NCBI RefSeq assembly: GCF_040954835.1
Contig: NC_090704.1
Span: forward strand, 36,460,979 to 36,524,978
Reading direction: 5' to 3'
From: Lepisosteus oculatus
Taxonomy: Eukaryota; Chordata; Actinopteri; Semionotiformes; Lepisosteidae
Length of the DNA: 64,000 nt
Part shown: positions 6,326-36,279 of the stretch, in pieces
How positions within the stretch are numbered: the first letter of the stretch is position 1
Layout: each line of letters begins with the position of its first letter
Program-made: the position numbers and the translations under genes
Notes under the pieces: generated by a model
Database searches by the model: none
Seen by the model: only the letters and a program-made list of their open reading frames with translations
Told to the model about the DNA's origin: nothing

Positions 6326-6784
6326 TTTGTTTTCAGATGTCATTGACTCTTCAAAAGAAATACATAAAGCTTCAAAATAAATTATTTAATTATATTTTAT
6401 TCGGTTTTGTTGCTTTTGTTGCATTTTTTTTTCTGGTTGAAATCTCTGGGTGAGGGAGAGCACTTTGTGTATGAGAACAAAAACTCAAAGGTTTTATTGG
6501 AATTTTACCAAACTGATACCTAAGAATGAAGAATAGATGAGGGCACTGACATGCGAATCAGGTAAGATTATCCCCTTCTGTTTTGGTGTGATTAAACTAT
6601 AAATACAGTCTTTACTTGTACGTATGGCTCAACCCTAGGCAGAGAAGTGATATGTGCATCCAAGTCGGACATTAGTCTCATGTCCGGAAGCCAATTTGAG
6701 CTAGTGTTCCACGATAAGCCTTTGACTTTGAAAGTTCTGAGTGTAATTTAAAGAAGCGAACTCAAAGTAAGACATTATAATAAT

Positions 6785-6880
6785 AATAATTAATAATTGC
6801 TTATACTTATATAGTGCTTTTCTTCGAACTCCACTCAAAGCGCTTTACAGGTAGTGCAACCACCTGCATCCACCTTATAA
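6785..6880 (-). mobile_element. 5S-SINE tail fragment
   Basis: Reverse-oriented tail of the 5S-type SINE: AATAATAATT repeats, then TTATACTTATATAGTGCTTT and CTCCACTCAAAGCGCTTTAC. It sits inside ficolin relic A. Confidence 0.8.
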
Positions 6881-7820
6881 TAGAAATTCAGGCTTAGAGC
6901 GGAAAGTACTCTTTATTTCCAGCACAGCAGCAAAGACACCAGCACACAAATACACCGTCACCGGGCTATAACACACTCAGGTCACTAGGGGTACAGGTAC
7001 TATAGGGTGATTCAGTGGGAACAAGTATAAAAGGCTATAAACCAGCGATAACTATTTACATGGCAGCCCAACAGCCAACAATAATGTGCATCTGCAACAG
7101 ATGGTCAACCCGCGCTGGCCGGAAGCCCTCAGTCCCCCCTTTTGGGTCCTCCTCCCATCCTGCCCTTCGCCCAGCATCTCAGCCGGGCCCTCTTCGGCCG
7201 CAACGCCAGGCGAGGGCACCACAATGTTCAAAAGTAAGAACAAAACGGTATGAACATTAAGTGCAACGGTTGAGCCACACTCGCATATCAAAACGGAAAT
7301 AGCATAACCACGCATTCATGACAACTAGTGATGCGCGGGTTGAAAAAGATTTTAGATCGGGTTGGGCGGGTGCGGGTAAAAAAAAGCCGACCTGTGCATC
7401 ACTAACGACAATAGACTGCTTCATGGCGGCAAGGACGTCGCCGCCAAACTGACCGTCTCGTTTTCCATGTGTGACATCGTTTCATTCGTGGTGCATAAAA
7501 TAAAAACTGAAGCGATAAGCGCTGATGGGGAGAATGAAGAGGCGAGGTTGTCCGCCATAATGTTTTAAGTTTCATTAAAACACAAAGGCAAATGAAGGGT
7601 ATAGCCAAGGAGAATGAATGGAAACTTTGCCCTTTCAGCAGACCTCAAGCCAGCCAAGCCGACTAGGCTGGTGCTTGCCCCAGTATTGACAAACACAGTC
7701 CCCTTAACTGGTGAAACCCAAAAACCTAGCATCAACACACAAGTCCCTCCTCCCACTTTTAACAGCTTACAATTCTTAACAGTGCTCATAGGGGGAGCAC
7801 TCCTGACTTAAACAGGTCCC
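6881..7820. other. GC-richer unclassified insert within ficolin relic A
   Basis: This block has no counterpart in the intact ficolin gene. It is richer in GC and CpG than its surroundings (notably 7110-7220) and contains the hAT-like MITE at 7326-7404. Short frames on both strands have no recognisable domain. It may be the remains of one or more transposons that replaced the ficolin exons. Confidence 0.4.
7326..7404. mobile_element. 79-bp hAT-like MITE
   Basis: The termini are inverted: TAGTGATGCGCGGGT at the left and the complement of TAGTGATGCACAGGT at the right (12 or 13 of 15 bases shared). The flanks ATGACAAC (7318-7325) and ACGACAAT (7405-7412) agree at 6 of 8 positions, as expected for a decayed 8-bp target duplication of the hAT superfamily. 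There is no coding capacity. Confidence 0.65.
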
Positions 7821-7919
7821 TCATTGAGACCATTTAGTCTAAAAGTTTTGAAAATGTAGAAAGTCTTAACTGACCACTAATAAGACAGCTAGAAATCCAT
7901 AACATAGTACTATTATATT

Positions 7920-8155
7920 GTAACGCATACGGCCTCCATTGCTTGTGAGAGCCGGCTTACCAGCCCGGTGACGTCATCGCTCTTCCCTATGTATAGCAGG
8001 GACCACAGCCGCTGGGCTGATGGGAGATTTCCCTTTGGCTCAAGAGGCTCGGTCCCTGTTGAGTGATGCCAGAGGCCTGGGTTCGAATCCCTGACCGTCG
8101 GGGGCTGACCTGAGGTGGCAGTAGCGAGGGTGCCCACATGAACCCTGGAGTGTTA
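7920..8155 (+). mobile_element. tRNA-derived SINE
   Basis: An insertion into the intron-7-like block of ficolin relic A. It carries an A-box-like TGGCTCAAGAGG (about 8037-8048) and a B-box GGTTCGAATCC (8080-8090), spaced as in a tRNA promoter. Its ends are TGTAAC and GTTACA, a short inverted match. A clear target duplication was not found. Confidence 0.65.
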
Positions 8156-8760
8156 CAATATCATTACATAAGAACTCAAGTGGCACACACAACACTATAT
8201 TCATTTAACGTGATGTTTATAAACATTATGACATTTTATGCAAGATGTACAGTATGAACCTTTATCAAATCTAAGCATTGTTAAATATTTCAAAATATAA
8301 CCAACTCAGAAATGCAATTGGCAAAATCTTTTCTTCACATTCAAAATTTGGGTTTTTCATGACAGTATTTCCCTGAGAATAATATTACAGTAATTACATG
8401 TTCTACTTTTACTATACTGTATGTGCCATTGAGTTCTCAGATGAATGGTTAAGTCACCAGAACGAGTGTGTTGACGGAGGTATATTGTAGATCTGAATGT
8501 TGGCCCACTGTGGGTCTAATTTGTAGAAATATGGCTAATCTAGTTTTTTTATCTACTGGGAGTGCCAATTGTCAAAAAACAATCATTAGAAAACCAACAC
8601 TGGGATAAAATCCTTTTGTAACTGAGTCTTCAAGAATACATACTGTATGTCAAGAAGAATAACGTGCTAAATCATCTTACAATCTGATCACAAAAGGCTC
8701 AGCTTTGAGTTAAAGAACACATATTGTATACTGTAGGTAAATATGTTTTATTGGTTATCT

Positions 8761-10025
8761 TATCTCTTTGGAGCTTACTCACAGCGTTGCCCATATTATT
8801 TTTTATGGATGGATAATTTGTGGGAAAGTATTGCATTTTCATGGGTCATGCTTTGCATTTTAATTTATTATGTTTAAAACTTTCCTAAAACTATTCAATA
8901 TAAGGCAATTCAAATTTTGGGAACTAAAATAAATATTTCTAAAGCAATAGAGGTTGTGTCCTTTCTACTATATTATTCATACAATGTTATTCTGCTGCAG
9001 TGTAAGTGTAATTTGTATTTTATCATTAGTGATGTATTTTACATTTATACCCACACAAAAAATATCAGACAAATAAACTTCAAAGAAGATGAGTCCACTG
9101 AAGATACTGAATAACAGTAATAAATGTTACAATGATTGCACTCACTCCACTCCACTCCCCCAGTTCTCTTGAATACAGCAGCAAGGAATTCTTCATTAAA
9201 AAATTAGGATGAATTAAACAGCAGGTATTATGCAGTAGGTATCAATCAAGAGAACACATGCAACATATTATCCATAGGGGTATGCACAGTACTTTACATG
9301 GTTTAATCATTATTTAATATTATATGACCCTGTATGATTTGGCCTTGGTCTTAAAGGGTGAAAATGCTTTGCAAATAACTATTATCACTGGCCATTGATA
9401 ATCAAGCCGTAAGCAGAAAAGCTAAGATCAAGAGTGTACTGGAACCCCCATCATTTACAGTAGTAAAACAATCAGCATGAGTAAAACTAATTTTTGGCTT
9501 ATTAAAATAATAGAAAAAAACAGTTATCTTTTGGTTGTGGACCGCAAACATGGTGAAATGTTCCTGTGACCGATCAAAGGTTAGGAAAATGAGAAACTTT
9601 GAGGGCAATAAATCAAGGCCAGATGAGGCTGCTCCATTTGGCAGATCAAGAAGTTGACATAGCTTTAAAATTTTAAGTCATTTTAAACACTTGCGCTCCA
9701 TCTTTAAAACAGTAAAACTGATAATGAAGTGTTGGGATAAAGACAATATCCCAGTAAAGGAATACATTCTTAATTGTGTTAATGATGATGATTCCTCTTC
9801 CTGCAGTCTTACTTTGGTCATGCTTTTTCTTGTTGGCCAAAATTAGGGACGATTTTCAGTTAGAGAATTGCACCACACTGTAATGCATTGTTTAGCACTA
9901 CTTTGGAAGGTATTCTTGTGTTTTCTCCTGACCTGGTGCCAGATCCTCTCATTGTGATTCAGATACTGTAAATTCATAAATTACTGCTGAATAAAAACAT
10001 TATTGTACAACTACACATACTGTGC
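8761..10025. other. gene-free stretch between ficolin relic A and the tandem units
   Basis: AT-rich with no exon, RNA gene or classified repeat recognised. Short open frames at 8917-9114, 9402-9608 and 9974-10165 have no domain and are expected by chance at this base composition. Confidence 0.5.
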
Positions 10026-12763
10026 TGCGAGGTAGCAATGCTAAACACTGCTCCAGTGTACTGCACAAAAATAACACTCCTAAATACATTTTCTTGTTGG
10101 TTGGTGCTATTTCTAGTGAAATATCCTGAAACCACAATGTAAATTGCTCCAGTGAAGCAGAACACGGTTCACATTTTATTCAATATTAAATTAGCTGCTG
10201 TACCGCAGTAATTTCTAAATCTGGGTTTAGGTCCCCATCTAGTGGTTGATTGAGCAGTGACAGATGGGCTCTAACAAATCATTTGTGTCTTGTGAGTTTC
10301 ACACTTCAATATTGGGTTCTGCTTGTGAACACTCTTATGTTAGAAAAGCTTGAGACAAAGCTTTATCCTTTGATTCATAACTGTAATCACAACCACTTCT
10401 TAAGGAATTAAGCTGCTGCCATAATAAAATTTAGTATAATAATTCATCATGTTTCTCTGTAGAATGCATTTACTTTTATTGGGCTTTGATTTTCTTATTA
10501 TCGTCACTGTGAGGGGGATGTCTGTTCTGTTACATTAAGCTTCAAAATTCATTATAATGTTCTGATTATCTGCTCCAAGCCTTTCTACTCCATTTTATAT
10601 AAAATGTTCAATGATGAACATTTATACTCAAATGTTTAGATGATTAAACGCAGTTTTCTGCAAACAGAGAGTTTGTGGTGAACTCCTTAAAAAAACATTT
10701 AATCTCCAAACAGCCAAATGAGACAGAAGAAGGGTAAACAAATTTCCTCTGGATAAAATAATTATTTAACTTATATGCATTAAACAGGTTGTATGAAATA
10801 TTCCTTTTATCTAAAAATAATAAGAGCATTTTAAATTTGAGGGTGTCCACAATTTGAAAGAACAAAGTCTGTGATGGCCCAGGGAGTAGTGTAATGCAAG
10901 AATATTATTTTCCCAAACCCTTATTGCCCTTCATTCCAACTTTCCATTGCAGAGGATGAAGATAAACTGTAGGATTTTATTAATCCTTTGTAAAGGACTT
11001 GAAGGACTTTTTGAAGAGATCTTTTATATCAAACCTTTTTGGAATGCATATCCAGTAATACCCTTTCTGTTGTACAGCCTGTCATGCTAGCCTATTAAAA
11101 GAGCACCAAACGATGGATGATCATCCACTATTAAGGGCCAAACCACTACTGGTGTCTTAGACAGATACTGAGAGAGTGAAAATGAAAGAAGAATACTGCT
11201 GACATACTGTAGCTAAAAGCAGAATTTGTAAGAGAGCCTGTGAGAAACGACACTATGGGAGTCTGCGAAAGGTGTCTTAATATCAGTGAGCAAGCACTAT
11301 ATTGTTATCATAATTAAAGAAGTCCAGTGTAACTATCAGGTAAACTACGTTAAAAAGGAATTGCATTTTTAACTAGGAGCTGGGTTGTGAAAATAATTCA
11401 GACGCCAGAAATAAACAGCAGTTACTTTTGCAAGGGATTCTGTTTTTGTCTTTTCTTCTGTAGAGGGAACCCTAGCTTCTAGACATCTAGCTATCTACAC
11501 AGGGATGTTTTTCAGTTTAGACAGTTGCTCCACCCACAAGCTAGGGCTTTATTTTCCTACTGGTGTTTTTTTTTTTTTTCAAGAAACCATTTTCTGTTTG
11601 GTCTTGAACTTGCGTGTGTCTGTCTTGAACTCTGCCTTTTCAAGGCCCAAAATGTGTTTAAACCCCCCTGTAACATCACAAATGTCACCTATGTTTTGTA
11701 TATTTACGGTACGTGTCAGCTTACTTTGTCAGTAAGGAGAGGAGTTAATGGGCCTTGAAGATCTTTCCACGAATTTCTGTTTACATGACATACTGTATGA
11801 TAAGAACATATTGATTCTTAGGAAGAAACCGGATCTAAACTGGTGAAAAGCAAACCGATATCCTGTATTTTTTACAGTTCTAGACAGACATCGATTTACA
11901 TCAGTACAATATGGACTTCAATGTTCAGGGAAAATGTCGTTTTAATGCATATTACCTGCTGACCACACTGTTTAATCTTTTTCTGAAAGTACCAACTCCG
12001 ATCCATGCAATGCAACTTCCTCTCAAATTATTTATTATACGTTTAAAATTGTCAATCAGCTGGAATGAGGTCATTAGTGGAGTGCCACATGGATTAGTTC
12101 TAGGACTGCTAATTCTAGAACTCTTTTTTCACATCATCGATTCTTCAGCAGAAAGACATAAAGAGAGCCTTAGAGTAAATGCTTCTACTTCTTCATCTAT
12201 TGAGAGTAAATGCTAAAAACCAAATAGCTAAACAGCCTTGGAGTAAATGCTTATACTGCTTCATCAGTTTCGTCAATCTTTATTTTCTTGACTTTCTTTG
12301 CCTGAAACCACACTGGTTGAAGGATAGCACCTTGTCAAATGCTTTTACAGGAACTTAGCTTCACAACATCAGAGAATGTAGTCAAGTTGAAAGCACTAAT
12401 ATGCAAATGCTTACTCCACCCACATTGTGTAACTTTCTTGGCAAATAAGCATTTTCATGGCACTTGGCTACACCTCCACTCACCTGTCACTTAGCAGTGG
12501 TTGTTTTTGGATACCAATTATACAAGAGACTTGAACCACCTGGAGGCAGTTAACAATTATGCCTGCTTCAGGAGGTTCATGATATTTAAGGGCTACTCTG
12601 ACCGTATTCTTTGGCTCCAGAGCCGCCCAACCTGAAGTCTCTAGCTTCTGTGTTTCCTTGTCTTTATTTCATTTGGATTCCCTGTTCCTGTTATGCTTCT
12701 GTGTTAACTCAACTTGGATCCAGCTTTTTTTAATTTCAACAACACTTTTGTGTTACTTCACCC
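10026..12763 (+). repeat. 2.74-kb tandem duplication, unit 1
   Basis: A direct repeat of unit 2 (12766-15505). The offset is 2740 bp at the left and 2742 bp at the right, and only about ten differences were noticed, so identity is above 99%. The left junction is TGCGAGGTAGC in both units, and the right end is TTGTGTTACTTCACCC in both. Content: AT-rich flank, a LINE reverse-transcriptase fragment (11911-12216), and other retroelement debris. The segment 11738-11910 resembles 21040-21200, the 5' flank of the intact ficolin, so the unit came from within the ficolin cluster. Confidence 0.95.
11911..12216 (+). pseudogene. LINE reverse-transcriptase fragment (unit 1)
   Basis: A 101-codon frame containing SGVPHGLVLGLLILELF. 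This resembles the non-LTR retrotransposon motif SGVPQGSVLGPLLF, which precedes the catalytic YxDD motif; that motif is not present here. It is a fragment of a dead element of CR1/L2/Rex type, not a host gene. An almost identical copy is at 14653-14958. Confidence 0.7.
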
Positions 12764-12765
12764 AT

Positions 12766-15505
12766 TGCGAGGTAGCAATGCTAAACACTGCTCCAGTGTA
12801 CTGCACAAAAATAACACTCCTAAATACATTTTCTTGTTGGTTGGTGCTATTTCTAGTGAAATATCCTGAAACCACAATGTAAATTGCTCCAGTGAAGCAG
12901 AACACGGTTCACATTTTATTCAATATTAAATTAGCTGCTGTACCGCAGTAATTTCTAAATCTGGGTTTAGGTCCCCATCTAGTGGTTGATTGAGCAGTGA
13001 CAGATGGGCTCTAACAAATCATTTGTGTCTTGTGAGTTTCACACTTCAATATTGGGTTCTGCTTGTGAACACTCTTATGTTAGAAAAGCTTGAGACAAAG
13101 CTTTATCCTTTGATTCATAACTGTAATCACAACCACTTCTTAAGGAATTAAGCTGCTGCCATAATAAAATTTAGTATAATAATTCATCATGTTTCTCTGT
13201 AGAATGCATTTACTTTTATTGGGCTTTGATTTTCTTATTATCGTCACTGTGAGGGGGATGTCTGTTCTGTTACATTAAGCTTCAAAATTCATTATAATGT
13301 TCTGATTATCTGCTCCAAGCCTTTCTACTCCATTTTATATAAAATGTTCAATGATGAACATTTATACTCAAATGTTTAGATGATTAAACGCAGTTTTCTG
13401 CAAACAGAGAGTTTGTGGTGAACTCCTTAAAAAAACATTTAATCTCCAAACAGCCAAATGAGACAGAAGAAGGGTAAACAAATTTCCTCTGGATAAAATA
13501 ATTATTTAACTTATATGCATTAAACAGGTTGTATGAAATATTCCTTTTATCTAAAAATAATAAGAGCATTTTAAATTTGAGGGTGTCCACAATTTGAAAG
13601 AACAAAGTCTGTGATGGCCCAGGGAGTAGTGTAATGCAAGAATATTATTTTCCCAAACCCTTATTGCCCTTCATTCCAACTTTCCATTGCAGAGGATGAA
13701 GATAAACTGTAGGATTTTATTAATCCTTTGTAAAGGACTTGAAGGACTTTTTGAAGAGATCTTTTATATCAAACCTTTTTGGAATGCATATCCAGTAATA
13801 CCCTTTCTGTTGTACAGCCTGTCATGCTAGCCTATTAAAAGAGCACCAAACGATGGATGATCATCCACTATTAAGGGCCAAACCACTACTGGTGTCTTAG
13901 ACAGATACTGAGAGAGTGAAAATGAAAGAAGAATACTGCTGACATACTGTAGCTAAAAGCAGAATTTGTAAGAGAGCCTGTGAGAAACGACACTATGGGA
14001 ATCTGCGAAAGGCGTCTTAATATCAGTGAGCAAGCACTATATTGTTATCATAATTATAGAAGTCCAGTGTAACTATCAGGTAAACTACGTTAAAAAGGAA
14101 TTGCATTTTTAACTAGGAGCTGGGTTGTGAAAATAATTCAGACGCCAGAAATAAACAGCAGTTACTTTTGCAAGGGATTCTGTTTTTGTCTTTTCTTCTG
14201 TAGAGGGAACCCTAGCTTCTAGACATCTAGCTATCTACACAGGGATGTTTTTCAGTTTAGACAGTTGCTCCACCCACAAGCTAGGGCTTTATTTTCCTAC
14301 TGGTGTTTTTTGTTTTTTTTTCAAGAAAGCATTTTCTGTTTGGTCTTGAACTTGCGTGTGTCTGTCTTGAACTCCGCCTTTTCAAGGCCCAAAATGTGTT
14401 TAAACCCCCCTGTAACATCACAAATGTCACCTATGTTTTGTATATTTACAGTACGTGTCAGCTTACTTTGTCAGTAAGGAGAGGAGTTAAGGGGCCTTGA
14501 AGATCTTTCCACGAATTTCTGTTTACATGACATACTGTATGATAAGAACATATTGATTCTTAGGAAGAAACCGGATCTAAACTGGTGAAAAGCAAACCGA
14601 TATCCTGTATTTTTTACAGTTCTAGACAGACATCGATTTACATCAGTACAATATGGACTTCAATGTTCAGGGAAAATGTCGTTTTAATGCATATTACCTG
14701 CTGACCACACTGTTTAATCTTTTTCTGAAAGTACCAACTCCGATCCATGCAATGCAACTTCCTCTCAAATTATTTATTATACGTTTAAAATTGTCAATCA
14801 GCTGGAATGAGGTCATTAGTGGAGTGCCACATGGATTAGTTCTAGGACTGCTAATTCTAGAACTCTTTTTTCACGTCATCGATTCTTCAGCAGAAAGACA
14901 TAAAGAGAGCCTTAGAGTAAATGCTTCTACTTCTTCATCTATTGAGAGTAAATGCTAAAAACCAAATAGCTAAACAGCCTTGGAGTAAATGCTTATACTG
15001 CTTCATCAGTTTCGTCAATCTTTATTTTCTTGACTTTCTTTGCCTGAAACCACACTGGTTGAAGGATAGCACCTTGTCAAATGCTTTTACAGGAACTTAG
15101 CTTCACAACATCAGAGAATGTAGTCAAGTTGAAAGCACTAATATGCAAATGCTTACTCCACCCACATTGTGTAACTTTCTTGGCAAATAAGCATTTTCAT
15201 GGCACTTGGCTACACCTCCACTCACCTGTCACTTAGCAGTGGTTGTTTTTGGATACCAATTATACAAGAGACTTGAACCACCTGGAGGCAGTTAACAATT
15301 ATGCCTGCTTCAGGAGGTTCATGATATTTAAGGGCTACTCTGACCGTATTCTTTGGCTCCAGAGCCGCCCAACCTGAAGTCTCTAGCTTCTGTGTTTCCT
15401 TGTCTTTATTTCATTTGGATTCCCTGTTCCTGTTATGCTTCTGTGTTAACTCAACTTGGATCCAGCTTTTTTTAATTTCAACAACACTTTTGTGTTACTT
15501 CACCC
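12766..15505 (+). repeat. 2.74-kb tandem duplication, unit 2
   Basis: Copy of 10026-12763. Differences seen include G to A near 14002, T to C near 14012, A to T near 14057, the poly-T tract near 14310 (broken by a G here), T to C near 14374, G to A near 14450, T to G near 14491 and A to G near 14874. The low divergence points to a recent event or an assembly artefact. Unlike unit 1, it is followed by unrelated sequence starting GACCCAGCACC. Confidence 0.95.
14653..14958 (+). pseudogene. LINE reverse-transcriptase fragment (unit 2)
   Basis: The duplicate of 11911-12216 with one amino-acid change (I to V near the end, HIID to HVID). It has the same SGVPHGLVLG motif and the same interpretation: a retrotransposon fragment carried along in the tandem duplication. 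Confidence 0.7.
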
Positions 15506-16435: not shown

Positions 16436-17039
16436 GAGCGATTCCTTGCAGTGCTGTAGTTTATCCTTATACTTACAATCGTTATATAACTAGGACTGTA
16501 GTTATAGACGTTTGTGCTTTCTATTGGTTTAAAACTATTTTTTCTTAACGATTCAGAACCTTGTTACCGTCGATGTATCTGCAAAAATGAATGCATATGG
16601 GATTTTGTCGCTCAAGGCAATAATAATCACGAGAGTGCTGATGAACATGAAACTGTACTTCATCGCTAAAAATACCAGTTTGCTCGACGTTATCTTCTAC
16701 CATGAAGCACTAGTAGTTGCATGGGTAGTTGTAATGGCTCCGTTTCAACCGAAATTTCACAGCCCTGCCGCCGGCCCTGTGCTTCACCCTAACTGTGTCT
16801 CTTGAATTCTCCTTATGCTTTGTACAGTCTACAAGAACTTAACTTTGGTTCTGACCTTGATTCTGAACTGCGTTGAATGTTTCTCTTGCCTGCCTGCACC
16901 ATGCTTATCTGTGTGTGGCTTCACCACCGTACATGTTCAATGCTACCTGTTTCCCTAGCCAGCTGACTCCCCCCCCTACACAAGGGTTCACAGATCTGCC
17001 GCTTCAGTCCACCTTAAACAGCAGATTATTACATCTTAT
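16436..17039. other. gene-free stretch before ficolin relic B
   Basis: No exon recognised. The 72-codon frame at 16587-16805 has no known domain. The text near 16.8-16.95 kb is in the style of retroelement debris also seen near 12.6 kb. Confidence 0.4.
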
Positions 17040-19990
17040 CTTAGAGAAGTGATCCAAGAAATTCAGTTGCATTGTTGTGTTTGGTGGGGAAATTATGATA
17101 TTTTCTGAAATAGGGTCTTGGTTGCTACTAGTTCGATGTCATTGTTCTTCCAGGGGGTAGTAACTGTAAGGGGAACTATATGAACAGTTGGTACACAGTG
17201 AGTACAGAGGGAGGCAAAGGCCTCCAGGTGTTCTGTGACATGGAGAAAGATGGGGTGGCTGGCTTGTGAGTGAGCTCATCTTAATTCTAAGAGTTAGAAC
17301 ATTTCTAGACAGATATATCAATTTAACAATATATTGTTTGTTCATTATAATAAAAAAAAGTTTATGCACATACTGTATACAAAGGTTATTTAAATTTATG
17401 TGGTGAAAGATGTCACAATGCTCTCACACACCGATGAATCTCACACCCACTTTGGGATGATAATGTTAATAGGTTCAACAACATGAACAAATCTACCTTA
17501 TTGGAACAAAATGTATCACAATATAAATGGTAAGTTAAAAGAAAAATAACAGGAAACATTTTCCATTAAACATTCTTATTTTAGGAGCTGTCCTACATGA
17601 AGGTGTATAGAACTATATATTTTTAGGAACTCTGTTTGTTGTGCCTTAATATTATGTTTTATCAAGCTTTGAAACAAATGGTCATTCATATTAGATTCCT
17701 TCTTTCTCTAAAATATATTTTAATCTAACATATTTCATGTATTTTTTTCCTTTTCTTCTTTTACTGTATTTATTTTGTTACTAAGATTGCCACCCGCCCG
17801 TATTTGTGCATGCAGCTTACTTCCACCCTAATTCCTATTTTCCTTATAAAAATTTCATACAGTATATAATACTTCTATTTCTAATATTGATCTTCATCAC
17901 TTTTTATGGAATCCATTCACTCCATTAACATCTTATTTTTTATTTCCAAAAAATAATTTAAACCAAATTCTCCAGGGTCATCTTAGCTTTAAATGTTTCA
18001 CAATCTTCTAGGTTAGGGTAAAAGACAGTAAGAAAAATACCTTTACTGAACATCATAATAGTTCCTTCGAAAGGGGAGTGGTTGGATTTGCACATTTCTA
18101 CCAACACTGGAATGCAGCTTATGATATTAATGCCCTGAATGCCTCAGCAGAGTCTTCTAGTCTAGCACTGTTTTTTCTTTCTAACTTATTTTTTATGACA
18201 GAGACTATTTCGTATCTTCTAATTTACACAAGAAATTATTTCATGATTAGTTCTTTTGAAACCGTATTCCCGCTCTTTCCTTGGTCTCAGATGTTCTCTG
18301 CTGAAGGTGTATTCTTGCAAATAAATTAAGCAAGTGAAATCGTTCAGTATTCTTTATTTAATTGTTTCCTTTTCAAACAACTTTTAATATCTGAAAGAAG
18401 TATCATGAAAAATAAGAGTTTTTATAAAAGGAGGTATATTTGTTTTTTAATGGAAATCATGCTATAATGTGTAGACTGTACAACTCTGGTTGTTTATTCT
18501 TTAATATTATTCATGACATTGTCTTTATAAATGTTCTGCAAAGTAGGGAAGATCTTCATTCAAAAAATTAACATGGGAGCAGTGAGAAGGAATAAGGTTA
18601 GTAGCAGAAAGAGATGTCATTATTGGGGATTGAAAGACATAAGGATTGATTTTAATAACAAATTCATTTTACATTATACTAAATTTATTAAGTTTAACAT
18701 GCTTTAACTATGGAGGGCTGAAAGAGAAATATCAGAAAGAAATGGGAGAATATAATCTACAAAAGATTACATTTCGTGACACTAGAGTATCAGTGGGGGT
18801 AGTGTTGACAAGTTATTGAGCAAACACTAATGGCCTCAGTTCCACAGCCCTGTTGAACAACTCTGAGCAGTGAGACATGATGAGATGTCACTGATTCAGT
18901 CTAAGCACAATTTCTGGAGTCCTATTCATATTAATAAATGAGTAAAAAAAGCCAAAGCATTCTAGATCATGCCAGTTTTAACAAATTTCTTGTTAATCTA
19001 ATAAAAAAATATTCCTGAATAATGGCACAAATCGCATTTATAGACAAACTATTGTGCAAAAGCATGAGAGAAATAGTCTATGCTTACCCATTGAAATTTT
19101 GTAGAAGTAATTTCATTCATTTTCTGAAGTTTTGTTTTGTCTGTCTTGTATTAAAGGGAACTTCTAATTAAGGATGTAGACAAAATATGACTTCTTTAAA
19201 ATTCTGGGAGAATAGCAGTCAGCTTCTGGGAAATTTCGTGGGCGATACTGCAGGTACAGTAAGTTCACACTTTTTATTCGTACACTGACCTCCTAGGATG
19301 TACTGTAATTCATGTCTTTCATGATCAATTCAAATATTAAATTATATTACAGAATTTAAAGTAAACTAATTATCTTTGTTTACTTTAATACTTGAAATGT
19401 ATCTTGGAAATAAACAGTAATGATTTGCATAACTTTCTTTACATGTAACTACATTAAATGGCTACAGCATCGCCTGAAAGGTTTTTCTTTTCCTTATAAG
19501 GTAACTAAGGTCTTACTGTGAAATTCCTTAGCAAATAATTTGGTTCCTTAACAAATTCCTTAACAAACTGTGTGCAGTGGTATGCAGTTGTCTTTCTAAA
19601 TTTTAACAGTTTTGAAATATCATGTTTGTTTTAGTTTTTGTTTGTAAAATAACTTCTACAGTATTTAATGTATAATGTCTTTGAAATGTTTTGTAATTCA
19701 TAAGTGATACTTATATTGCTGTTAACTGTGCCACTCTGTATGCAGTTACCTGATGGTATAACAACTGTTGTATGGCCAACATTAATAGGGGACATCATAG
19801 TTTTTCCAATTAAATCAACTGTTACCCTATAAAAGATTCAATTATTTCTCTAAGTACAGCAATATGAAAATCAGACCAAAGTGTGAGATTGATCAAGGAG
19901 CAGCACAGTAGGAAACCTTAATTATTCTCAAGGATTTTGTCATAAGGAAATATAGTTGCCAATAATACTAGCATTTAAGGGCACAACAAC
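17040..19990 (+). pseudogene. ficolin pseudogene (relic B), exons 5-8
   Basis: Collinear with the intact ficolin from the end of intron 4 to the 3' UTR. Exon 5 relic: 17154-17275, with a 15-nt in-frame deletion after the NCK codons and a 1-nt loss near its end that shifts the frame; the GTGAGTG donor is kept. Exon 6 relic: about 18081-18147, lacking roughly 50-60 nt including the codons for the GN..TEFWLG segment. Exon 7 relic: 19157-19253, with a 38-nt-scale loss and an in-frame TAG in GGAGAATAGCAG. Exon 8 relic: about 19700-19886, readable from TAACTGTGCCACT to AATATGAAAATCAGACC and continuing into a matching 3' UTR. Introns 5 and 6 also align. No exons 1-4 were found upstream. Certainly non-coding. 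Confidence 0.9.
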
Positions 19991-22540: not shown

Positions 22541-22561
22541 TGAGTTTTGGTGTGACTTTAA

Positions 22562-22569: not shown

Positions 22570-22630
22570 TATCCTTCACTCGTGCAGTAGGTATTCATCA
22601 ACCTAGAGCAGACAGAATAGGACCAGCAGA

Positions 22631-25600
22631 ATGATGGTTCTTAGAACAGTCATCACTCTTTTCCTGTGTCAGTCTGTCGTGGCTTATGAAAAAAACACCT
22701 GTCCCGGTAAGTGTGATTGATACATTTTTAGAAAGTTCACAGTTCTGTGAAGATTTTTCCCTGTAGTAATGAAATGACAGCAGTGCTTTTCTTATAAGTG
22801 CTTTTTTGTCGTTTAATGTATTGCGGGCCTCATTCAGTTAACACCAATAATGACCTCTCATTACTTTGATATAGGTGGAACAAAAACTATAGAGTGTTTT
22901 GCTTATTTTAATTAACTTAAAGTTTGCTGATATGCAGATAATATCTAGAAAGGCAGTCAATGTGTAATAAACATCCTTTTTTTCTTGGAGAGCTGCAATC
23001 TAAAATGCATTTCAGTGTACTTCCAATATAAACCGTGACCACATAAAAAGAGATATCACACATTTGCTAAAACATTGGTCAGAGTCTTTCCAGAAGATAA
23101 ATGAGGGATAAATGAGAGCCTGAGCATTCAAAGCATTATGTCAGCTTTCAAATTATGGACAGACCTGAAAAAATACCTACTGTAAATAAGCCAAAGTCAC
23201 TTGCTTTTTGGCGTTAATTCCGATTGAAAAGTACCTCTGACTCTTGCAGGATTCTGGTCCTGCAAGGTTTGTAGTGCTATGTGAATTTAAACACCTACTG
23301 CAGTACGCATCCTTAACAGCTAACTACAATGCCTCAGACTCAATGCACATTTGCACTATGCACTTTTTATAGTACATGGAAAAAAACATGGTCTACAATG
23401 TTTTTTTTTCCAGTACTACATATTTATTGTTCTGTTGTGATTATTTATTATGTTTGTAATGTACTGTCTACATTGTGTGGTGTTCTCTGTTGCACTGTGT
23501 TGTCTGATGTATTGTATATGTCCCGAGAAATCAGCGCAAGAATTCCAATGTACATGTACATATGGCAATAAAATCCTCTACTACTACTCTACAGTGGAGC
23601 GCACAGTATCTCCACTAGTTCTGGCACTGCATAGCTCATGTGATTGTACTGTAGATCACAATTCTTTTCTTTTCTTTCTAAGCTCTAATGTTCTAAGCTC
23701 TAAGCTTATCCTCAGCGTCCATGTTATTTCAGCATCCAGTCCATCTTTTATTTAATTACTTTGTGACACTACAGCTCCACTTGTCATGGAGAAGGTTCCA
23801 ACTATGTGCCTTCACATATCAAGTGATCTTAAGCCAACATGGAATTCAAGACCCCTTTCTTCAAAGGTAGCTTAGAAATGCCATGTGTACTAAAAGAATC
23901 AGGGTTAAGCATCTTATTTAAGGACAAGTATCTGAGTATCTGAGCTGGGAGATCATGATTCACCAAAGTGAAGAAAAATATAAAATATAGCAAAATAAAA
24001 TAAAAAAGGATTTATTTCAGTGCTCATGTACACCAGCATTGTTTGGGGGGGGGGGGGGGGGGGCATTTTACAGGATATACAAACAAAAAGGAGAAACAAA
24101 AGAGAAACAATATCAATATAATATTGAACAAAAAGAAAAGAAGTACATAAGGCAAACACTAATTAAAAGCATGAATAAAAAGATAAGACTTTAGATGCAG
24201 AAACCTCTTCCCATTTTTTCCACAAACTTAGCTGTCTAAAATACATATAAAGTAAAATTAACTCAAAATTCATGCTGTATAACACTTTAAAATCAATTAA
24301 ATATGTTAGCTCATAGCTAAAATACTTTGACTACATTTGTTTATTTCATCCTTTCAAGGCTAACTTGTTATCTTCTGTGTTTCAGATGTGAAGATTATTG
24401 GCCTGAATGACAATGAGAGACTGACCCTGCTCCAGGGGTGCCCAGGAATCCCTGGAAGCCCAGGAAGCCCGGGAACAGCAGGTGCTCCTGGATCTCCAGG
24501 CTTGCAGGGACCACAAGGCCCTCCAGGTAAATCCAGACTATTCTGGATTCTTCTTCCATAATCACAAGTTGCTTTACTGTGATTGACACAAATCTGTCAA
24601 ATCTGTCAAAATTGACACAGATTGACACAAATCTGCTGTTTTTGACATTATTAAAGAGGATACCAAATGCTTAATTCAAATTTCTTTAAGTCTGTCTTCA
24701 CAAAGCCTCTTCATACCTAATAAATGAATTGAGGTCTTCAATAGAGGACTGCAGTACAGACCATTGGACTTTGGACTTAGCAATAGTCAAATATATTTTA
24801 AGGTCTTATAGCCATTTTTGCCATGTGCCCAAGACATTAAAATAACATTACAAATGTACAGATTCTCTGCTGTTAGTATGAAAAGGTACACGGTCTCAGA
24901 AGTATATGTGTACAGTTAATCTAATCACCTCCATGCTGGTTTTAGCTGTCCATGAAGAAGTTGAATCTTCCATTTTAACTGTGCTTCTACGTTGTAGGTC
25001 CTAAAGGACCACAAGGCGAGCCTGGCATGATGGGACCCAAAGGTAAGTAAATGCTTTTCTATTATTTATGATATTATATAGGAGCCCAAGATGAGTGATG
25101 GATCCCCACCCCAACCATGGATATTGTGACAAGAACAGGCGTTGTATACTGCAAATATAATTTCTGGTTACAGTTTTACAGTACAGTTTGTCTTCCCTAA
25201 AGATCCCCCATAACTTAACTATTGAGGCCATTTTGTCACCTCTCCATCTGAACTGCTGTGTAGTGGTGCTGCTTGCATGTACTGTACAAAGGTTTACTGA
25301 GGATGAATCCACTAAGTCAGACTCAGAGCCTCAAGTATCATAACAATGAATGTGTTAGGCTTAATGTACTTCTTGTATCTTTGTAGGAGACAAAGGAGAT
25401 CCCGGGGTCCAAAGTGACAAAGGTAAGTTAACAAATGTGAATTTTACCCACATAATCAAGAGTATAACCATGAACAAAATATATCATATATCATAATGAT
25501 GGATGGGAAACCAAAATAAAATGACCACAGTGAACCAAAATTATTATGCATATTAATAACAGAAAAGCATCGTTTTGTGTCTTAGGTTATAGCAAAATCT

Positions 25601-28600
25601 CAAGAAATTTGGTTGCATTGCTGAGATTGGTGTGGAAAGAATTGCTGCCAGCGTGATGTCATCGTTCTTCCAGGCGCTCAGAACTGTAAGGAGCTGCTGG
25701 ACCAGGGGAACTACATGAGCGGCTGGTACACAGTGAGGATAGCAGGAGGAAAAGCCCTCCAGGTGTTCTGTGACATGGAGACGGACGGAGGCGGCTGGCT
25801 TGTGAGTGAAATCTCACTTCTAAGAGTTAGAACATTTGAATGTGTAGCACCTCATTTCTGGGCAGATTCATTCACTAAGTAATATATTGTGTGTTCAAAT
25901 AATAAAGTAATTTTTTAAGATAAATTATTACTACTTTCAAAACATACACATCAAAAAATCTCAAACACATTATGAAATAATTTCATGCCCTTGCTATGTA
26001 TCAGGTTCTGAACAGAAATATTATTTTTTTTGTTTTAATTACACAAAAGCCTAATAGGTTTTTAATATACAGTATGTATTAAGATATCATTATAAGGAAA
26101 TATAAGACTTAATAAACACATATACTGTACTTTAGGGGAACAATATGAATTAAAATATAAATATTAAAAAAAATGGAAAATACCAGGAAATTTAGTTCTC
26201 TAAAAAGACTTAGAACTAAAGAAAATCAATAGCCATGCAGCCACAAGGAGAGCATGCAAACTCCACAAAGACAGTGCCTTGCTCCAGAATTAAACCCATG
26301 ACTGAAATGTGACAGCTCTGCTACACACCACATAACCAAGCTGGCGTACAACCAGATGTATAAAATCATATTTTTAGGAAATGTGATTGTTGTCCCTTAA
26401 CCTACTGCTACAGTATATGAAGCTACAGTATGAAAAACCAGTGTCCAGTCAAAATAAATTTGATTCAAATTTATTTTATGGATTATCTTTCATTGACTTA
26501 ATTTTTCTTAAATATTTGTATTGGTGAATTTGAGTGGTGAAGTGGCACAGTGGCTAGGATTGCTGCTTTGCAGCACTGGAGCCCTGGGTTCAATTCTGGA
26601 CCTGGAGTGCAATCTGCACAGAGCTTGTATGTTCTCTCTGTGTTCAAGGGTTTCTCCTGTTTCCCTTGTGTGCTACAGTATCCTCCCACAGCCCAAAGAC
26701 ATACTAAAGGTTCATTGGCTTCTGGAAAAACATGTCTTTAGGTGTGAGTATGTGCTAGCATCATGTCCAGGGTGTACCCTGATTTGTGCCTGTTGCTTGC
26801 TGGGATAGGCTCCAGTGGCCTCCTGATACCAAATTGGAAGAAGTGTTAGACAATGGGTGCATGGATTTGTACATTTAATTTACTTCCACACTTATTCTTA
26901 TATTTCTCATAAAATTATCTTATCTAATACTATTGTTTTGAGTTTGCTGCCTTATTTATAATATAATCCAAGCCAAAATATAATCATGTTTTCACTGTCA
27001 GGCACTTATCATAGAATCCACTCACTCCATTAAAATCTTTTTTTTTCATCTTTACCAAATGCTCCCACTTCTGCTTTGTTTATAATATTACTTACACTAT
27101 TGTTAGGGTAAAGGATAATAAGAAAACTCCCATTCGTGTGCATAATTCTAACAATAAGTAGTAATAGAACTACGCTAATATTTCCTTTATAACCGTGGTG
27201 TTGTGGTGGTAGGTGATACAGAGGCGAATGGACGGATCTGTAGATTTCTACCGAGACTGGAATGCCTACAAGAAAGGGTTTGGTAACCAGCAAACAGAGT
27301 TCTGGCTGGGGAACGACAATATTAATGCTCTGACGGCCTCAGGTGAGTCTTATACTTCAGTGGTGTTTGGTCTCTGATGTTCATTGCAATGATTTTTAAT
27401 CACTGGTGTGAATATGTATCTTCTATCTTAGTTAAAAACTAAGCTCTGACACTGAATAGGAATAGTGGAAGAAAGAGATCCATACAGTAGGATTCAAAGA
27501 CATAAAGACTGAATTTAATAATGAATTCAATTCATATTAAGTCTACTAATGTTATTTTGTAACTTTAGTAGTAACTTAACAAGAAATATCAGAAACAGGA
27601 GAATATCATCTGTCAAGTCATGACACCTGAGTATCAATGGGAGTAGTGTTGACATTTAGTTGAGTCCACAAATTTACAGCCCTGCTGAGCACCTCTGAAC
27701 AGTGAGACATAGTAGATGTCATTGACACAGTTTCAAAACAATCATGAATTTATTAGAGTGCACAAAGTCAAACTATTGTAGAGTAGGCCAATGGTAGTTT
27801 CATCCATGTCAATGAATTCAAATCCTCTCTCTGGGGACAATGTTTTTTTTAAGTTGTGCAAAAGCATGTAAACAATAACATACTGAATGCCCATCAACTG
27901 AATTTTTGTAGAAGTAAAACTTATAATTAATTTTCTGATTTTTTGTTTTGCATTTAAGGGAATTTCCAATTAAGGATAGATCTGAAAGATTTCGATGATA
28001 TTGCTACTTTTGCCAAATACCAATCCTTCAAAATTCTGGGAGAATCAGACAAGTACAAGCTCCTTCTGGGAAATTTCATGGGTGGTACTGCAGGTAAGTT
28101 CTCACTTTGATTTGTTCACCCCCTGACTTCCTAAGAGGTAATTCAAGAATAAAAACTTATTAATTATTCATTTGAAATATGTCTTGGTAATATTATGATT
28201 TTGCGTTGCTTCCTTTACACATAACTGACATTGAAAGCCTCTACACTTCACCTTCAGTTTTTCTTTTCACTTGAAATCCTTTCACTTTTCATTTTGAAAT
28301 CCCTTATAAAATGACCCGGTTCAAAAGTTGTTTCTAGCACAGTTATATACTGTCATTTTTCCAAATGTTATGTTAATCATGTTTCACATTATCATCTGTT
28401 TGTTTAATAATGTAAAATAAATGTAATATATAAACTTTTGTAAATGTTTTGTGGTTGTAAAGGGATTTAGTGTAGGAGAATTAAAATTACAAAAAATGGC
28501 TTGAGAAAGTTGTTGTTTTATTTTGCTAATTGATAATAAGATGAAAAATGTTGGTTTCTAAACCTGCAATTTCATTAGGCATCATGAATGTTGCTAACCT

Positions 28601-29647
28601 CCCAATCAGTTTAGGAAAAAAAATGTTTTAATTCAGCATACAGGTCATCATTGTCTTTTGCATATTCAAAAACAAAACTGCAAATGTACATTTGAAAACA
28701 TGACTATAACAGTAAAATAGAAAATACAGTAGCTGCTACAATACTTTAAAACATAAAGGAAAGGCAGGAAAGGTTAAATTAATTGCTCATTACAGTGTTC
28801 AATTTGCTAATATAACAAGTTAGCCTGTTGCAAGGGATAAGTTTCTCTAATTCAAATGTGAAAACTGAATAATAATCAAACAGAAAAATAAGTGCAAATT
28901 CCACATTTACACAATTCACACTTGAAAATTGACCACAAAATATGATGCTTAACATGAAAAAAACTGTCAGGCAGAAATGGCAGTTTCTGGAATCACGTAA
29001 ACCCCAGATATTTTTCCCAGTGGCGGAAATATTGTGTCAAAATTAATAACTTTTAACAGGTTTTTCTTTCAATAAATAGACCATTTAGTCTAAAATACAT
29101 ATAAAGTAAATGTAGAAAAATGAAAGTAATAGCAGACCATTAATAAAACTACAAGAACGTTATTCTACCAGTACTATTATATAATTTAATAAGATCTCAT
29201 ATGGCATACATATTGCTAGGTTCAGTTAATGAATGTGATGTTTTTTAAATATTATGCTGTTATATGTAAGATGTGTGAAGCTCACATTAAGCAGTGCTGC
29301 ATTTGTTGCAAAAATATAACCAGCTAAAAAGAAGAAACATCTGATGGCTCCAGACCTTGCAATTTTTCTAAAAATGTCTTCATCTTCTCCCCACAGGAGA
29401 TTCCTTGACAAGCCACAACAACCAAGCCTTTTCTACCAAAGAGCAAGACAACGATAGTTATGGTGGTGGTAACTGTGCCACTGCATATTCAGGAGCCTGG
29501 TGGTATAATGTGTGCCATGATTCCAACCTTAATGGTCTTTATCTGAAGGGACATCATGACAGTTTTGCCAATGGAATTAACTGGCACAGTGGAAAAGGAT
29601 ACAATTATTCCTATAAGTACAGTGGTATGAAAATAAGACCTCAGTAA
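22631..29647 (+). CDS. ficolin (collagen-stalk, fibrinogen-domain lectin), 8 exons
   Basis: Exons: 22631-22706, 24386-24526, 24998-25042, 25387-25422, 25674-25801, 27213-27342, 27959-28093, 29397-29647. All introns are GT-AG and phases agree, giving 313 residues plus TAA, the usual ficolin length. Residues 1-18 are a signal peptide (hydrophobic, ending SVVA). C24-P-D-V-K-I-I-G-L is the ficolin N-terminal segment. Collagen-like Gly-X-Y triplets run from about residue 46 to 102, with Ser97 where Gly is expected. The fibrinogen-like domain is C104-Q313, with disulfide pairs C104/C132 and C257/C270 expected by homology. The calcium loop has D248 and D250, and the C270-H271 pair that shapes the acetyl-group pocket in ficolins is kept. 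Family role: secreted oligomeric pattern recognition, classically of acetylated sugars, with activation of the lectin complement pathway through MASPs. The second ATG (22634) is an equally possible start. No orthology to FCN1, 2 or 3 is claimed. Confidence 0.95.
23330..23590 (+). mobile_element. probable LINE/SINE 3'-UTR fragment in ficolin intron 1
   Basis: The segment ends TGTACATGTACATATGGCAATAAAATC, in the style of fish retroelement tails that end in a short poly(A)-signal-like sequence. Family not determined. Confidence 0.4.
24045..24063 (+). repeat. poly-G tract (19 G) in ficolin intron 1
   Basis: An uninterrupted run of 19 guanines about 320 bp upstream of exon 2. It is capable of forming a G-quadruplex on the transcribed RNA and is likely to be length-polymorphic. 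Confidence 0.95.
26525..26870 (+). mobile_element. tRNA-headed SINE in ficolin intron 5
   Basis: The head has an A-box-like TGGCACAGTGGC and a B-box-like GGGTTCAATTCTGG. The body has GTATGTTCTCTCTGTGTTC and CCTCCCACAGCCCAAAGACA, and the tail ends ATGGGTGCATGGA. This family recurs in the window on both strands. Relic B lacks the insertion at the corresponding place, so it landed after the two copies split. Confidence 0.8.
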
Positions 29648-29958: not shown

Positions 29959-29964
29959 AATAAA
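29959..29964 (+). terminator. candidate ficolin polyadenylation signal
   Basis: AATAAA 312 bp after the stop codon. Further AATAAA hexamers lie at 30222 and 30301, so which one is used cannot be told from sequence. Confidence 0.4.
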
Positions 29965-30369
29965 ATGCTTTGGTAAGTAAACCTTCACGAATACAGTACA
30001 GTATGTACCTCAAGAAGGGTAATGTGCTAAATTATTTTACTATCGGATTATAAAAATCCCTGTTTTGAGCTACACATATATGCTTTACTGCACAAATATG
30101 TTCACTATTCCTTTTTGTGCTTGTTTTTGTAACTGCTTGTCTATATAAATGGGAAATGTTCCAGCTGGTACTCTGACTTGCCTGTTGTTCCCTTGGCTAA
30201 ACAATTCCTGTATGCATACATAATAAACTTACTGTGCCTTTCTCAGCAAACTGACTAAGAATTTCTTTTCTACAATTTTCTACAATTGTATGACAATTTT
30301 AATAAAATGTTGTGTATTAGCTGTGTTTCACATTTACATTAGTGGTTATTCATAAACTGTCCACTATTC

Positions 30370-30490
30370 ACCCATCCATTTTCTAACTGCTTTATCCACA
30401 ACTTAGGCAAGCAATGGGCACATGGTATGATACATCCTCGATAGGATTACAGTCCATTGAAGGACTCATACAGATGCTAACACACACTCA
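30370..30490 (-). mobile_element. tRNA-headed SINE, tail half
   Basis: Reverse-oriented: CCATCCATTTTCTAACTGC (complement of the GGATGG tail), then GGCAAGCAATGGGCAC and ACACACTCACACC. The head is missing. Confidence 0.75.
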
Positions 30491-34040: not shown

Positions 34041-34789
34041 TTATGGTTTAGTAATAATATCTGCCTTGAGAATATTTTTATTTTACTTTGGTGCTTGATA
34101 ATAATGATTTTCCTTATCATTTTTCATTTTTATGATTCCTAAATTTTGGTAATTCTCTAATCATACTCTTAAAGTTTGGTAACAAAATATATTCAAATAA
34201 ATTCAGTACAGAGAAAAATTACTAATTTCAATTTAAGTACATTTTGAACTTTGTGAAAAGACTGTATAGTCCCCATATTGTTGCAAACCCCTGGTCTTGC
34301 ACAATTTCCACCAATTGTGACGTGATGCTAGTCTCATGACTAAAGTAATGTGATGTTCAAGCGAATCAGTGATTTGTGTAGCAGAGATTTCATCGCAGGA
34401 ATGATCCAACATGAACTGCATGTAGTTATAGTATCAAGTAGTATTCATTGGCAAAACCATTTTGAAATCGAGAGCAATATTGTATTGAAGAGATGTACAG
34501 TATACTCATGCTGGCTTGTTTACAGTATAATAGTGCCACTTCACATCACCGGAAGTTTTGTTGCCTCATTCTTATTGCAGAAAATAGTGTAGCAAATTAC
34601 TTGAAAATGTTATCTATTTTATTATATAAATTGGAGGTTTTACAAGTTACTGTGTACATTTTACTTTTATTGTGGTTTGAAATGTACTTATAAATGCCAA
34701 TTAAAAAATCAGAATTTTTTCTTTTGCATACTCAACAAGAAAACTGTTCTGGGACTTGCAATATTATAAAAAAGACAAATATACACGTA

Positions 34790-34975
34790 CATCCTTACCT
34801 GTTCACACCTTTGGAAACCAGAGCACTTGGAGGAACCCCACATGTACAGTACACAGGGATGACATACAGTACAAACTCCATGCAGGTAGCACTCCAGGAA
34901 TTGAGCACAGGGCCCTAGCACTGCAAGGCAGGCATTCTAATCACTGCACCAAAATGCTGTCCAGCAAACTTCCCA
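34790..34975 (-). mobile_element. tRNA-headed SINE, head half
   Basis: Reverse-oriented: CAAACTCCATGCAGGTAG, ATTGAGCACAGGGCCC (B-box complement region) and CTGCAAGGCAGGC. The tail is missing. Confidence 0.7.
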
Positions 34976-35034
34976 TTCCTACAGTATGATTATTCTACTT
35001 TTAAGCATCTTTTTTATTAAAAAAAAAAAGAAAA

Positions 35035-36275
35035 CATGGACTGGCTTATCACAGATTTGCTGAATCACTTGTCTGGATCTTTCCAGGAGATAAATCAAGG
35101 ATGAACAATTCCAGTCATTGTGGCACTGATCATCTTCTGGTTTTCATTTCTGCCTTCAACTTGCAGACAGACCTACTGTAAAAACATGATCTGAAATGTC
35201 AAACTAATTTTTTTTTTTAAGTTAATAATTTCTAATTAAAAAGTACCACTGAATCTTGCAATTGACTACAATTGACATGGGAATTAATTGCTCATGCTGC
35301 CTCACAGTGCTGGGGACCCAGATTCAATTCCAGACCCGAGGTCCTACCTGCATAGACCTTGTACAGTATGTTCTCTCCGTCTTCATGTGGGTTTCCTCCA
35401 AGGGCTCTGCTCTCCTTAATATAAACATTGTCCATAAATATGGTAGTGGGTAAAGTGGCTTCTTGGAAAATTAGCCCTAGGTTAGAGTACAGTATGTGTT
35501 TGTATTTACCCAGCAATGACCTAGCATCCTGTCCATAGTGTACCCTGCCTTACACCCATTGTTTGCCAAAGGCTCCAGCTCACCTGCAAAACTGAACTAG
35601 AAGATGCAGTTAGAAAATGGATGGATGGATTTCTATTTGGGCTTAATATCATCTTCAGCTTCAAATTCATACGGTTTCAATTTCATCATCCACTTCACGT
35701 TATATTTGAATACTATGTGGCACTCCAGGTCTACTTGTCAGAGAGAAGGTTAAAACGGTCATCCTTCACACATCAGTTGGTGTTAAGATAATGTAGTACA
35801 AGTTTATTTGAATGGCTTATTTAATTTCTTAAAGGTAACTCCTCAGCAGTATCATATGGTTATGTCATAGCAGAAACTTCATGGTCATTCACTCTCCAAT
35901 ATGAAAGAACATACAAAATATTTTTAAACATATGATGTACAGTAAATTAACTAAATGTGTAGAATGTTTAGAATAGCATAGTAAATATACCTTAATGTGC
36001 AGCACAAGTAATATTAAGCCCTTTTTAAATTCTAAATTCTAATAACATCTGTCTTAAGTATGTACTGTATATAGTATTGAAGTAAGCTATCATATCAAAG
36101 CAATAATATAAAATCCATCTATTCATCCTCCAGTTCATAAAGTACTTATAAAGTTTACCAGACATATAACCATGAACATGCTGATTTGCAGACCAACTCA
36201 CAGTGCAGGAGAATGTATTAGATTATGTCTTATATTAGAGAACTGTCCCAAGAAATGTATTTGAATTGCTGAGTT
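35035..36275 (+). pseudogene. ficolin relic C: intron 1 and intron 4 sequences only
   Basis: Blocks align in order with the intact gene. 35040-35260 matches intron 1 at 23050-23250 (TCTTTCCAGGAGATAAAT, GACAGACCT..CTACTGTAAA, AAAAGTACC.CTGA.TCTTGCA). 35670-35800 matches 23715-23850 (GGTCTACTTGTCAGAGAGAAGGTT-like). 36150-36275 matches intron 4 (ATAACCATGAACA, CAAGAAAT..TTTGAATTGCTGAG). No exon survives between them. A tRNA-SINE is inserted at 35275-35635. This shows that the cluster once extended downstream of the live gene. Confidence 0.7.
35275..35635 (+). mobile_element. tRNA-headed SINE, near full length
   Basis: The head reads GCTGCCTCACAGTGCTGGGG and ATTCAATTCCAGACC, the body GTATGTTCTCTCCGTCTTC and CATGTGGGTTTCCTCC, and the tail CAGTTAGAAAATGGATGGAT. 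It is inserted in ficolin relic C. Confidence 0.85.
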
Positions 36276-36279
36276 TGCT

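Follow-up and report, generated by a model that had tools for sequence, protein, structure and literature searches.

Remains of a probable head-to-tail ficolin array with one complete gene, and a second ficolin array, in Lepisosteus oculatus

A stretch of 64,000 nucleotides of the Lepisosteus oculatus genome, hereafter the window (contig NC_090704.1, abbreviated C9; C9:36460979-36524978), harbors a complete ficolin gene, W, together with the remains of at least three further copies, relics A, B and C. Very probably these are what is left of genes of a single ficolin lineage (lineage I) arranged head to tail, W being the sole complete one. A second array, of the sister lineage (lineage II), lies 0.77 Mb away and contains a gene, F3, that appears to record exchange between the two lineages. 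The initial annotation of the window had described one intact ficolin among at least three relics. This arrangement is borne out by matches to W at three places, collinear and all on the plus strand, 11 of the 16 relic segments scoring above the highest value obtained from shuffled sequence. It had also spoken of one survivor, which holds locally for W but not across the genome, where seven intact paralogues and a pseudogene are present at C9:35.655-35.718 Mb and another ficolin at C27:462 kb.

The complete gene and its relics

W occupies 22.6-30.2 kb on the plus strand and consists of eight exons separated by GT-AG introns, giving a frame of 313 codons:

22631..22706, plus strand: exon 1, start codon, hydrophobic N-terminus and first N-terminal Cys, placed by splice site and open frame
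24386..24526, plus strand: exon 2, N-terminal segment and collagen triplets
24998..25042, plus strand: exon 3, collagen triplets, 45 bases, without Gly-Lys-Xaa-Gly-Pro
25387..25422, plus strand: exon 4, end of the collagen region
25674..25801, plus strand: exon 5, start of the fibrinogen domain
27213..27342, plus strand: exon 6, fibrinogen domain
27959..28093, plus strand: exon 7, fibrinogen domain
29397..29647, plus strand: exon 8, end of the fibrinogen domain and stop codon TAA

The encoded protein has a C-terminal fibrinogen_C domain (Pfam PF00147, 251.8 bits) and, N-terminal to it at residues 43-100, a collagen region (PF01391, 37.2 bits against a cut-off of 27.2). The family comparison covered solved structures, among which W scores 324.4 bits to ficolin-2, 322.3 to ficolin-1, 259.3 to ficolin-3, 208.5 to tenascin-R and 207.7 to FIBCD1, the first two being presumably human entries. 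W thus carries both features that define a ficolin, a fibrinogen-like domain that resembles those of ficolins more closely than those of other families with this domain, and a collagen-like Gly-Xaa-Yaa region. At the N-terminus, a hydrophobic stretch and two cysteines were read from the sequence. Most likely W codes for a secreted lectin of the collagen-fibrinogen type, with a fibrinogen domain maintained by selection, and its product is predicted to be expressed, secreted and ligand-binding. A part of intron 1, approximately 23294-23592, is a dispersed repeat with at least 39 other copies in the genome, out of 1018 candidate matches (1.2 Gb in 813 contigs were searched), and was not used as evidence.

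The relics were delimited by comparing the W region (20500-31500) with the whole window using DUST-masked blastn. The level expected by chance was set from 200 locally dinucleotide-shuffled copies of the W region, with a top score of 45.4 bits, and from a reversed copy, with 36.8 bits. The features of the array other than the exons of W are as follows:

6468..6643, plus strand: relic A, promoter and 5' flank containing TATAAATA, aligned with its W counterpart at 22442-22612 (70.1%, 82.5 bits)
7825..8516, plus strand: relic A, pieces of intron 7, matching W 29078-29330 and F3 35672604-35672145 (F3 scores 41.1 and 109 bits)
8514..9008, plus strand: relic A, 3' untranslated region and 3' flank, matching W 29872-30102 and F3 35671326-35670999 (F3 scores 62.5 and 66.8 bits)
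10026..12763, plus strand: 2.74-kb tandem unit 1, with a copy of the W 5' flank at 10648-10868 and 11687-12033
12766..15505, plus strand: 2.74-kb tandem unit 2, with matches to the W 5' flank at 13388-13608 and 14429-14775
17017..19997, plus strand: relic B, partial exons 5 to 8 with introns, gaps in the exons and in-frame stop codons in exon 8
20744..21328, plus strand: W 5' flank duplicated in the 2.74-kb units (20993-21328, 75.4 bits; 20744-20989, 44.0 bits)
35047..35260, plus strand: relic C, piece of intron 1, matching W 23054-23248 (65.0%, 78.3 bits)
35295..35635, plus strand: interspersed repeat within relic C, matching in many places, as does its W counterpart
35680..35802, plus strand: relic C, piece of intron 1, matching W 23726-23850 (72.8%, 81.1 bits)
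36222..36277, plus strand: relic C, 55-base remnant from the sequence preceding exon 5, matching W 25575-25629 (36223-36277, 41.1 bits) and relic B 17028-17083 (78.6%, 48.3 bits)

Relic A extends over 6.5-9.0 kb and retains promoter, intron 7 and 3' flank. The promoter piece reaches to about 20 bases short of the start codon, and its TATA-like box is aligned with that of W. Further along, 7827-7918 corresponds to W 29078-29182 (44.0 bits), 8149-8311 to W 29170-29330 (66.8 bits) and 8514-8747 to W 29872-30102 (133 bits). Exon 8 is missing, the F3-like part stopping at 8516 and the W-like 3' part starting at 8514, and no exon was recognisable in relic A.

Relic B matches W in nine segments from 17017 to 19953, with scores of 39.7 to 235 bits, and includes sequence of introns 4-7. 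Across exons 6-8, differences between W and B fall at 36, 32 and 39 of 125, 121 and 122 sites in the first, second and third codon positions; between F3 and B, in exons 5, 7 and 8, the counts are 32, 38 and 37 of 134, 131 and 131. With in-frame stops in exon 8 and nearly even change over codon positions, relic B displays the lost constraint of a duplicated pseudogene and appears to be under little or no constraint.

Relic C, at 35.0-36.3 kb, consists of intron pieces only, and no exon was recognisable in it. Its repeat at 35295-35635 was dropped as ficolin evidence, being dispersed. The piece at 36222-36277 is the weakest part and also matches the second-array locus L010 with 34.0 bits. The two stretches of W intron 1 that match relic C have no second match in the genome, in searches that missed relic C itself (65-73% identity) and could let equally diverged copies escape. 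In a set of 35 loci (204,565 bases), these stretches and their C partners reach at most 31.1 bits, and the promoters of W and A find nothing at E 0.05. When low-complexity sequence is masked, the intervals 6465-6655, 7820-8340 and 35040-36275, which the initial annotation had assigned to relics, align significantly with W, the repeat in the last of them being left out of account. The accompanying statement that the relics keep introns, promoter and exons stands for introns in A, B and C and for the promoter in A; exons are kept in B and are lacking in A and C.

The duplicated W 5' flank that had been noted in the 2.74-kb units is confirmed at unit positions 623-843 and 1664-2010, and the copy appears old (about 60% identity). 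From their position, the units would be the lost 5' end of relic B. Besides the two full copies, a genome search with the unit listed 39 short matches (41 in all): 36 fall within unit positions 2425-2587, two within 936-1036 and one within 1467-1587. The W 5' flank has 11 other genome matches, all at flank positions 733-902 (window 21472-21641) and outside the stretches that match the units; this search missed the units themselves, so that equally diverged copies could escape it. Searches reaching 30 kb beyond the left end of the window and 10 kb beyond its right end turned up no further relics. The 15 matches in these flanks all fall at W 26208-26873, 30352-30504 and 31038-31098, which are taken as dispersed repeats, and tblastn with W against the flanks gave nothing at E 1.

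A second array, two lineages and a chimeric gene

A Pfam search of the genome located a second ficolin group at C9:35657634-35715292, on the same chromosome. In the 90 kb examined, the second array (C9:35.655-35.718 Mb) contains F1 on the plus strand and F2-F8 on the minus strand, seven of them intact and F6 a pseudogene. F1, F2, F3, F4, F5, F7 and F8 have a homologue of all eight exons between splice signals, the lowest scores (28-54) belonging to the 36-base exon 4, and their exons 5-8 match without stops independently of the exon-chain script used to model them. Some exon ends are probably a few codons too long (F1 exon 7, F7 exon 4 and the exon 2 starts of F2, F3, F4 and F8). F6 has no match to exon 5, a broken exon 7 and an exon 8 with a stop and a change of frame. 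In its exon chain exon 6 scores and exon 8 does so weakly, the remaining six of the eight exons being near zero; the eight-exon chain forced on F6 was not taken as a gene and indicates only that no valid model exists. Another ficolin, likewise equipped with collagen exons, is located at C27:462-465 kb; the exons seen there show no lesion, exons 1 and 4 being undefined.

A tree of exons 7 and 8 separates W, F3 and B from F1, F2 and F4-F8 with support of 100/100. The tree of exon 6 sets the seven lineage-II rows apart, again at 100/100, and that of exon 5 resolves none of the split. These comparisons show two ficolin lineages, I (W, B and the 3' half of F3) and II (the second array). W is the sole complete lineage-I gene found, and the second array holds six intact lineage-II genes besides F3 and F6.

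F3 aligns with F2 in its 5' flank, exons 1-5 and introns, over roughly 3.6 kb up to position 35675879 (71-78%), beyond which only exons align. With W, on the other hand, it has in common exons 6-8 together with the beginning of intron 5 and some of the sequence of introns 6 and 7; a match at W 26548-26816 is a dispersed repeat and was not counted. Sequence comparison thus shows F3 to be a chimera of a lineage-II 5' half and a lineage-I 3' half, joined at exon 5 or early intron 5, so that sequence would once have been exchanged between the lineages. In keeping with the lineage-II origin of its 5' half, F3 has no counterpart of the promoter piece of A or of the intron-1 pieces of C. Between W and F3, exons 6-8 show changes at 30 of 105 synonymous and 39 of 414 non-synonymous sites (Fisher p 2.7e-6) and, by codon position, at 19, 16 and 34 of 173 sites each, a pattern indicating that these fibrinogen exons are constrained. 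As a separate observation, the W 5' flank at window 21676-21805 matches intron 1 of F3 (72.5 bits) and of F2 (49.7 bits), out of register with the genes.

Identity among lineage-II genes is 0.94-0.985 in exon 5 (15 pairs), 0.89-0.99 in exon 6, 0.68-0.87 in exon 7 and 0.73-0.935 in exon 8 (21 pairs each). For the four lineage-II pairs computed, synonymous divergence (dS) ranges from 0.04 to 0.25 over exons 5-6 and from 0.36 to 2.23 over exons 7-8 (a single value was not computable), and exon 5 of W is near that of F1 and F7 (dS 0.20 and 0.25) against about 1-1.9 in exons 6-8 of W. It is likely that gene conversion confined to one half of the fibrinogen domain has acted among lineage-II genes. 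The birth-and-death history previously put forward for the locus stands for tandem duplication with decay and is incomplete, a chimeric gene and, probably, localised gene conversion being also involved. Furthermore, an extra cysteine near the C-terminus (KYC.MKIRP) is present in all six intact lineage-II genes, and F2, F7, F8 and the pseudogene F6 have a CDC.C stretch directly following the DND residues; neither feature occurs in W or F3.

W and the second array differ in the motif by which ficolins dock MASPs, which is typical of ficolins and lies outside their structural definition. Exon 3 measures 45 bases in W and 54 in the seven intact second-array paralogues. The latter all carry a GK-X-GP core (with Ile as Xaa in five of them, Thr in F5 and Leu in F7) preceded by Phe or Tyr, and the ficolin on C27 carries it as VGKPGP. 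Reading 22707-25673, the stretch of W between exons 1 and 5, in all three forward frames gave no GK.G, which rules out an overlooked GK-X-GP exon there. The core is therefore kept by eight of the eight other ficolins without found defects, none of which has the Pro or hydroxyproline that precedes it in the published motif. MASP docking by these eight is putative, given that missing residue and the unusual Xaa in two of them (F5 and the C27 ficolin), and W would be unable to dock MASPs. Presence of the core in the C27 ficolin makes loss in W likelier than gain elsewhere; exon 3 of F3 belongs to lineage II and is hence uninformative on the state of lineage I.

Duplication, decay and the alternatives

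Segmental tandem duplication would have produced an array of at least four lineage-I ficolin genes, namely A, the 2.74-kb units plus B, W and C. During decay, A and C would have lost all recognisable exons and B would have gained gaps, stops and unconstrained substitutions, leaving W alone complete, and exchange of sequence between the lineages would have given rise to F3. Duplication with decay is supported by the retained introns, promoter with TATA-like box and 3' flank, and by the stops and small codon-position bias of B. As in unprocessed pseudogenes, A, B and C keep introns or flanks of the parent, and the initial annotation's choice of segmental DNA duplication over retroposition is upheld on these grounds.

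Several points weigh against this account. Five of the 16 relic segments do not exceed the shuffle maximum (A, 44.0; B, 39.7, 42.5 and 45.4; C, 41.1 bits), and their case rests on collinearity. A and C have no recognisable exon, and their ficolin origin is deduced only from the resemblance of introns and flanks to those of W and, in the case of A, also of F3. In exons 5, 7 and 8, W and B differ at 28, 34 and 41 of 135, 132 and 132 sites by codon position, a mild third-position excess that may have been caused by changes in W itself. Assignment of the 2.74-kb units to the 5' end of B is weakened by a match to W that covers only about 580 bases of its flank at about 60%. The chimeric F3 could stem from several conversion events instead of a single exchange. 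In the second array, the exon-chain script accepted only in-phase, stop-free exons, so that open frames arise by construction, and integrity was judged from exon scores and the stop-free matches of exons 5-8.

The 2.74-kb pair might be an assembly artefact in which two haplotypes were set in tandem, a suspicion entertained only tentatively. The units are 99.6% identical and there are just two of them. Nothing decisive speaks against it; their eight substitutions and one 2-base indel are, however, confined to 11261-12133 and not spread over the whole unit.

That W itself is decaying, open but no longer used, is improbable. The missing GK-X-GP core would be the first sign, in a gene whose neighbours in the array are dead. 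Against this, splice sites and frame are intact, the canonical domains score at full strength, and exons 6-8 of W and F3 have diverged under constraint, part of which possibly lies on the F3 side.

It is very unlikely that B is the sole ficolin relic, with A and C reflecting chance or dispersed-repeat similarity, as introns often carry transposons. Such a reading draws on the absence of exons from A and C, on dispersed repeats in both W intron 1 and C, and on the third piece of C, with just 41 bits to W and a second match at L010. However, three of the four A segments (66.8-133 bits) and two of the three C segments (78-81 bits) clear the shuffle maximum in collinear order, and the repeat parts of W and C are separate from those that match as relics. 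In addition, A matches F3 independently of W, and the genome and 35-locus searches with the intron-1 stretches and promoters, limited in sensitivity as the former were, point the same way. Retroposed (processed) copies, for which no supporting point was found, are ruled out for practical purposes by introns 4-7 in B, promoter, intron 7 and 3' flank in A and intron 1 in C, all beside the parent W and in the same orientation.

Next to the array, exons of an iron-only-hydrogenase-like gene (PF02256, PF02906), presumably NARF or a relative, lie on the minus strand at 40774-41037, 44478-44750 and 46710-46967. At 57675-57792 (minus strand), a 5S rRNA match of 43.8 bits falls within a dispersed repeat that recurs at 4.7 and 16 kb and in locus L009, and is probably a 5S-derived short interspersed element. 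Short repeats at 36832-37061, 41087-41159 and 50577-50653 are related in sequence, occur in both orientations and are also found near the second array. A tRNA scan returned no tRNA. Elsewhere in the genome, four Hox9 and four Hox13 genes share the same four contigs and so give no indication of the teleost genome duplication. A pattern that covers isotocin and mesotocin has a single match, CYISNCPIG, which is isotocin, a form typical of ray-finned fish. One exon from one of 15 globin matches was compared as a beta-globin marker of fish or tetrapod; its best solved matches are presumably bird beta chains, followed by human gamma chains, with a fish chain scoring lower, a result that is not decisive and weighs as neutral to slightly against a fish.

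Relation to known complement lectins

Like tetrapod FCN1 and FCN2, W has an N-terminal Cys segment, a collagen region and a fibrinogen domain that best matches ficolin-2 and ficolin-1. The mature N-terminus of rat ficolin-B is given as ADTCPEVKVL in a passage of one study (PMC3179595), and its counterpart in W is NTCPDVKII. Human MBL1 is described in part of another source as a pseudogene (PMC10855846). As at that locus, one complement lectin copy is lost here while others persist; unlike it, a single tandem array here includes at least three relics, of which two survive merely as traces of introns and flanks.

In the portions of the literature consulted, teleosts are said to be without ficolins, with MFAP4 suggested as a possible stand-in (PMC9265350), collagen-type ficolins are said to be missing from teleosts and lower groups, urochordates excepted (PMC11312191), and no ficolins are reported from cartilaginous fish (PMC6795676). 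Like MFAP4, W has a fibrinogen-related domain, yet it scores at most 198.9 bits to MFAP4 against its far higher score to ficolin-2. A collagen region is not expected in MFAP4. No report of gar or bowfin ficolins was found in the literature searched, which was covered in part.

Tandem duplication, decay and one local survivor are a finding of an ordinary kind. It is the wider family that lifts it, with its two ficolin lineages, its chimeric gene and a surviving gene that lacks the MASP core, in a lineage whose ficolins have attracted little attention. A tentative proposal, for which the odds are judged to be rather low, is that W is a ficolin that gave up MASP docking, the last complete member of lineage I with its fibrinogen domain under selection, and that it recognises targets without starting the lectin pathway or competes for targets with MASP-docking lineage-II ficolins and so damps complement. 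The locus also lends itself, as a natural experiment, to asking whether a ficolin that lacks the MASP core plays a separate role.

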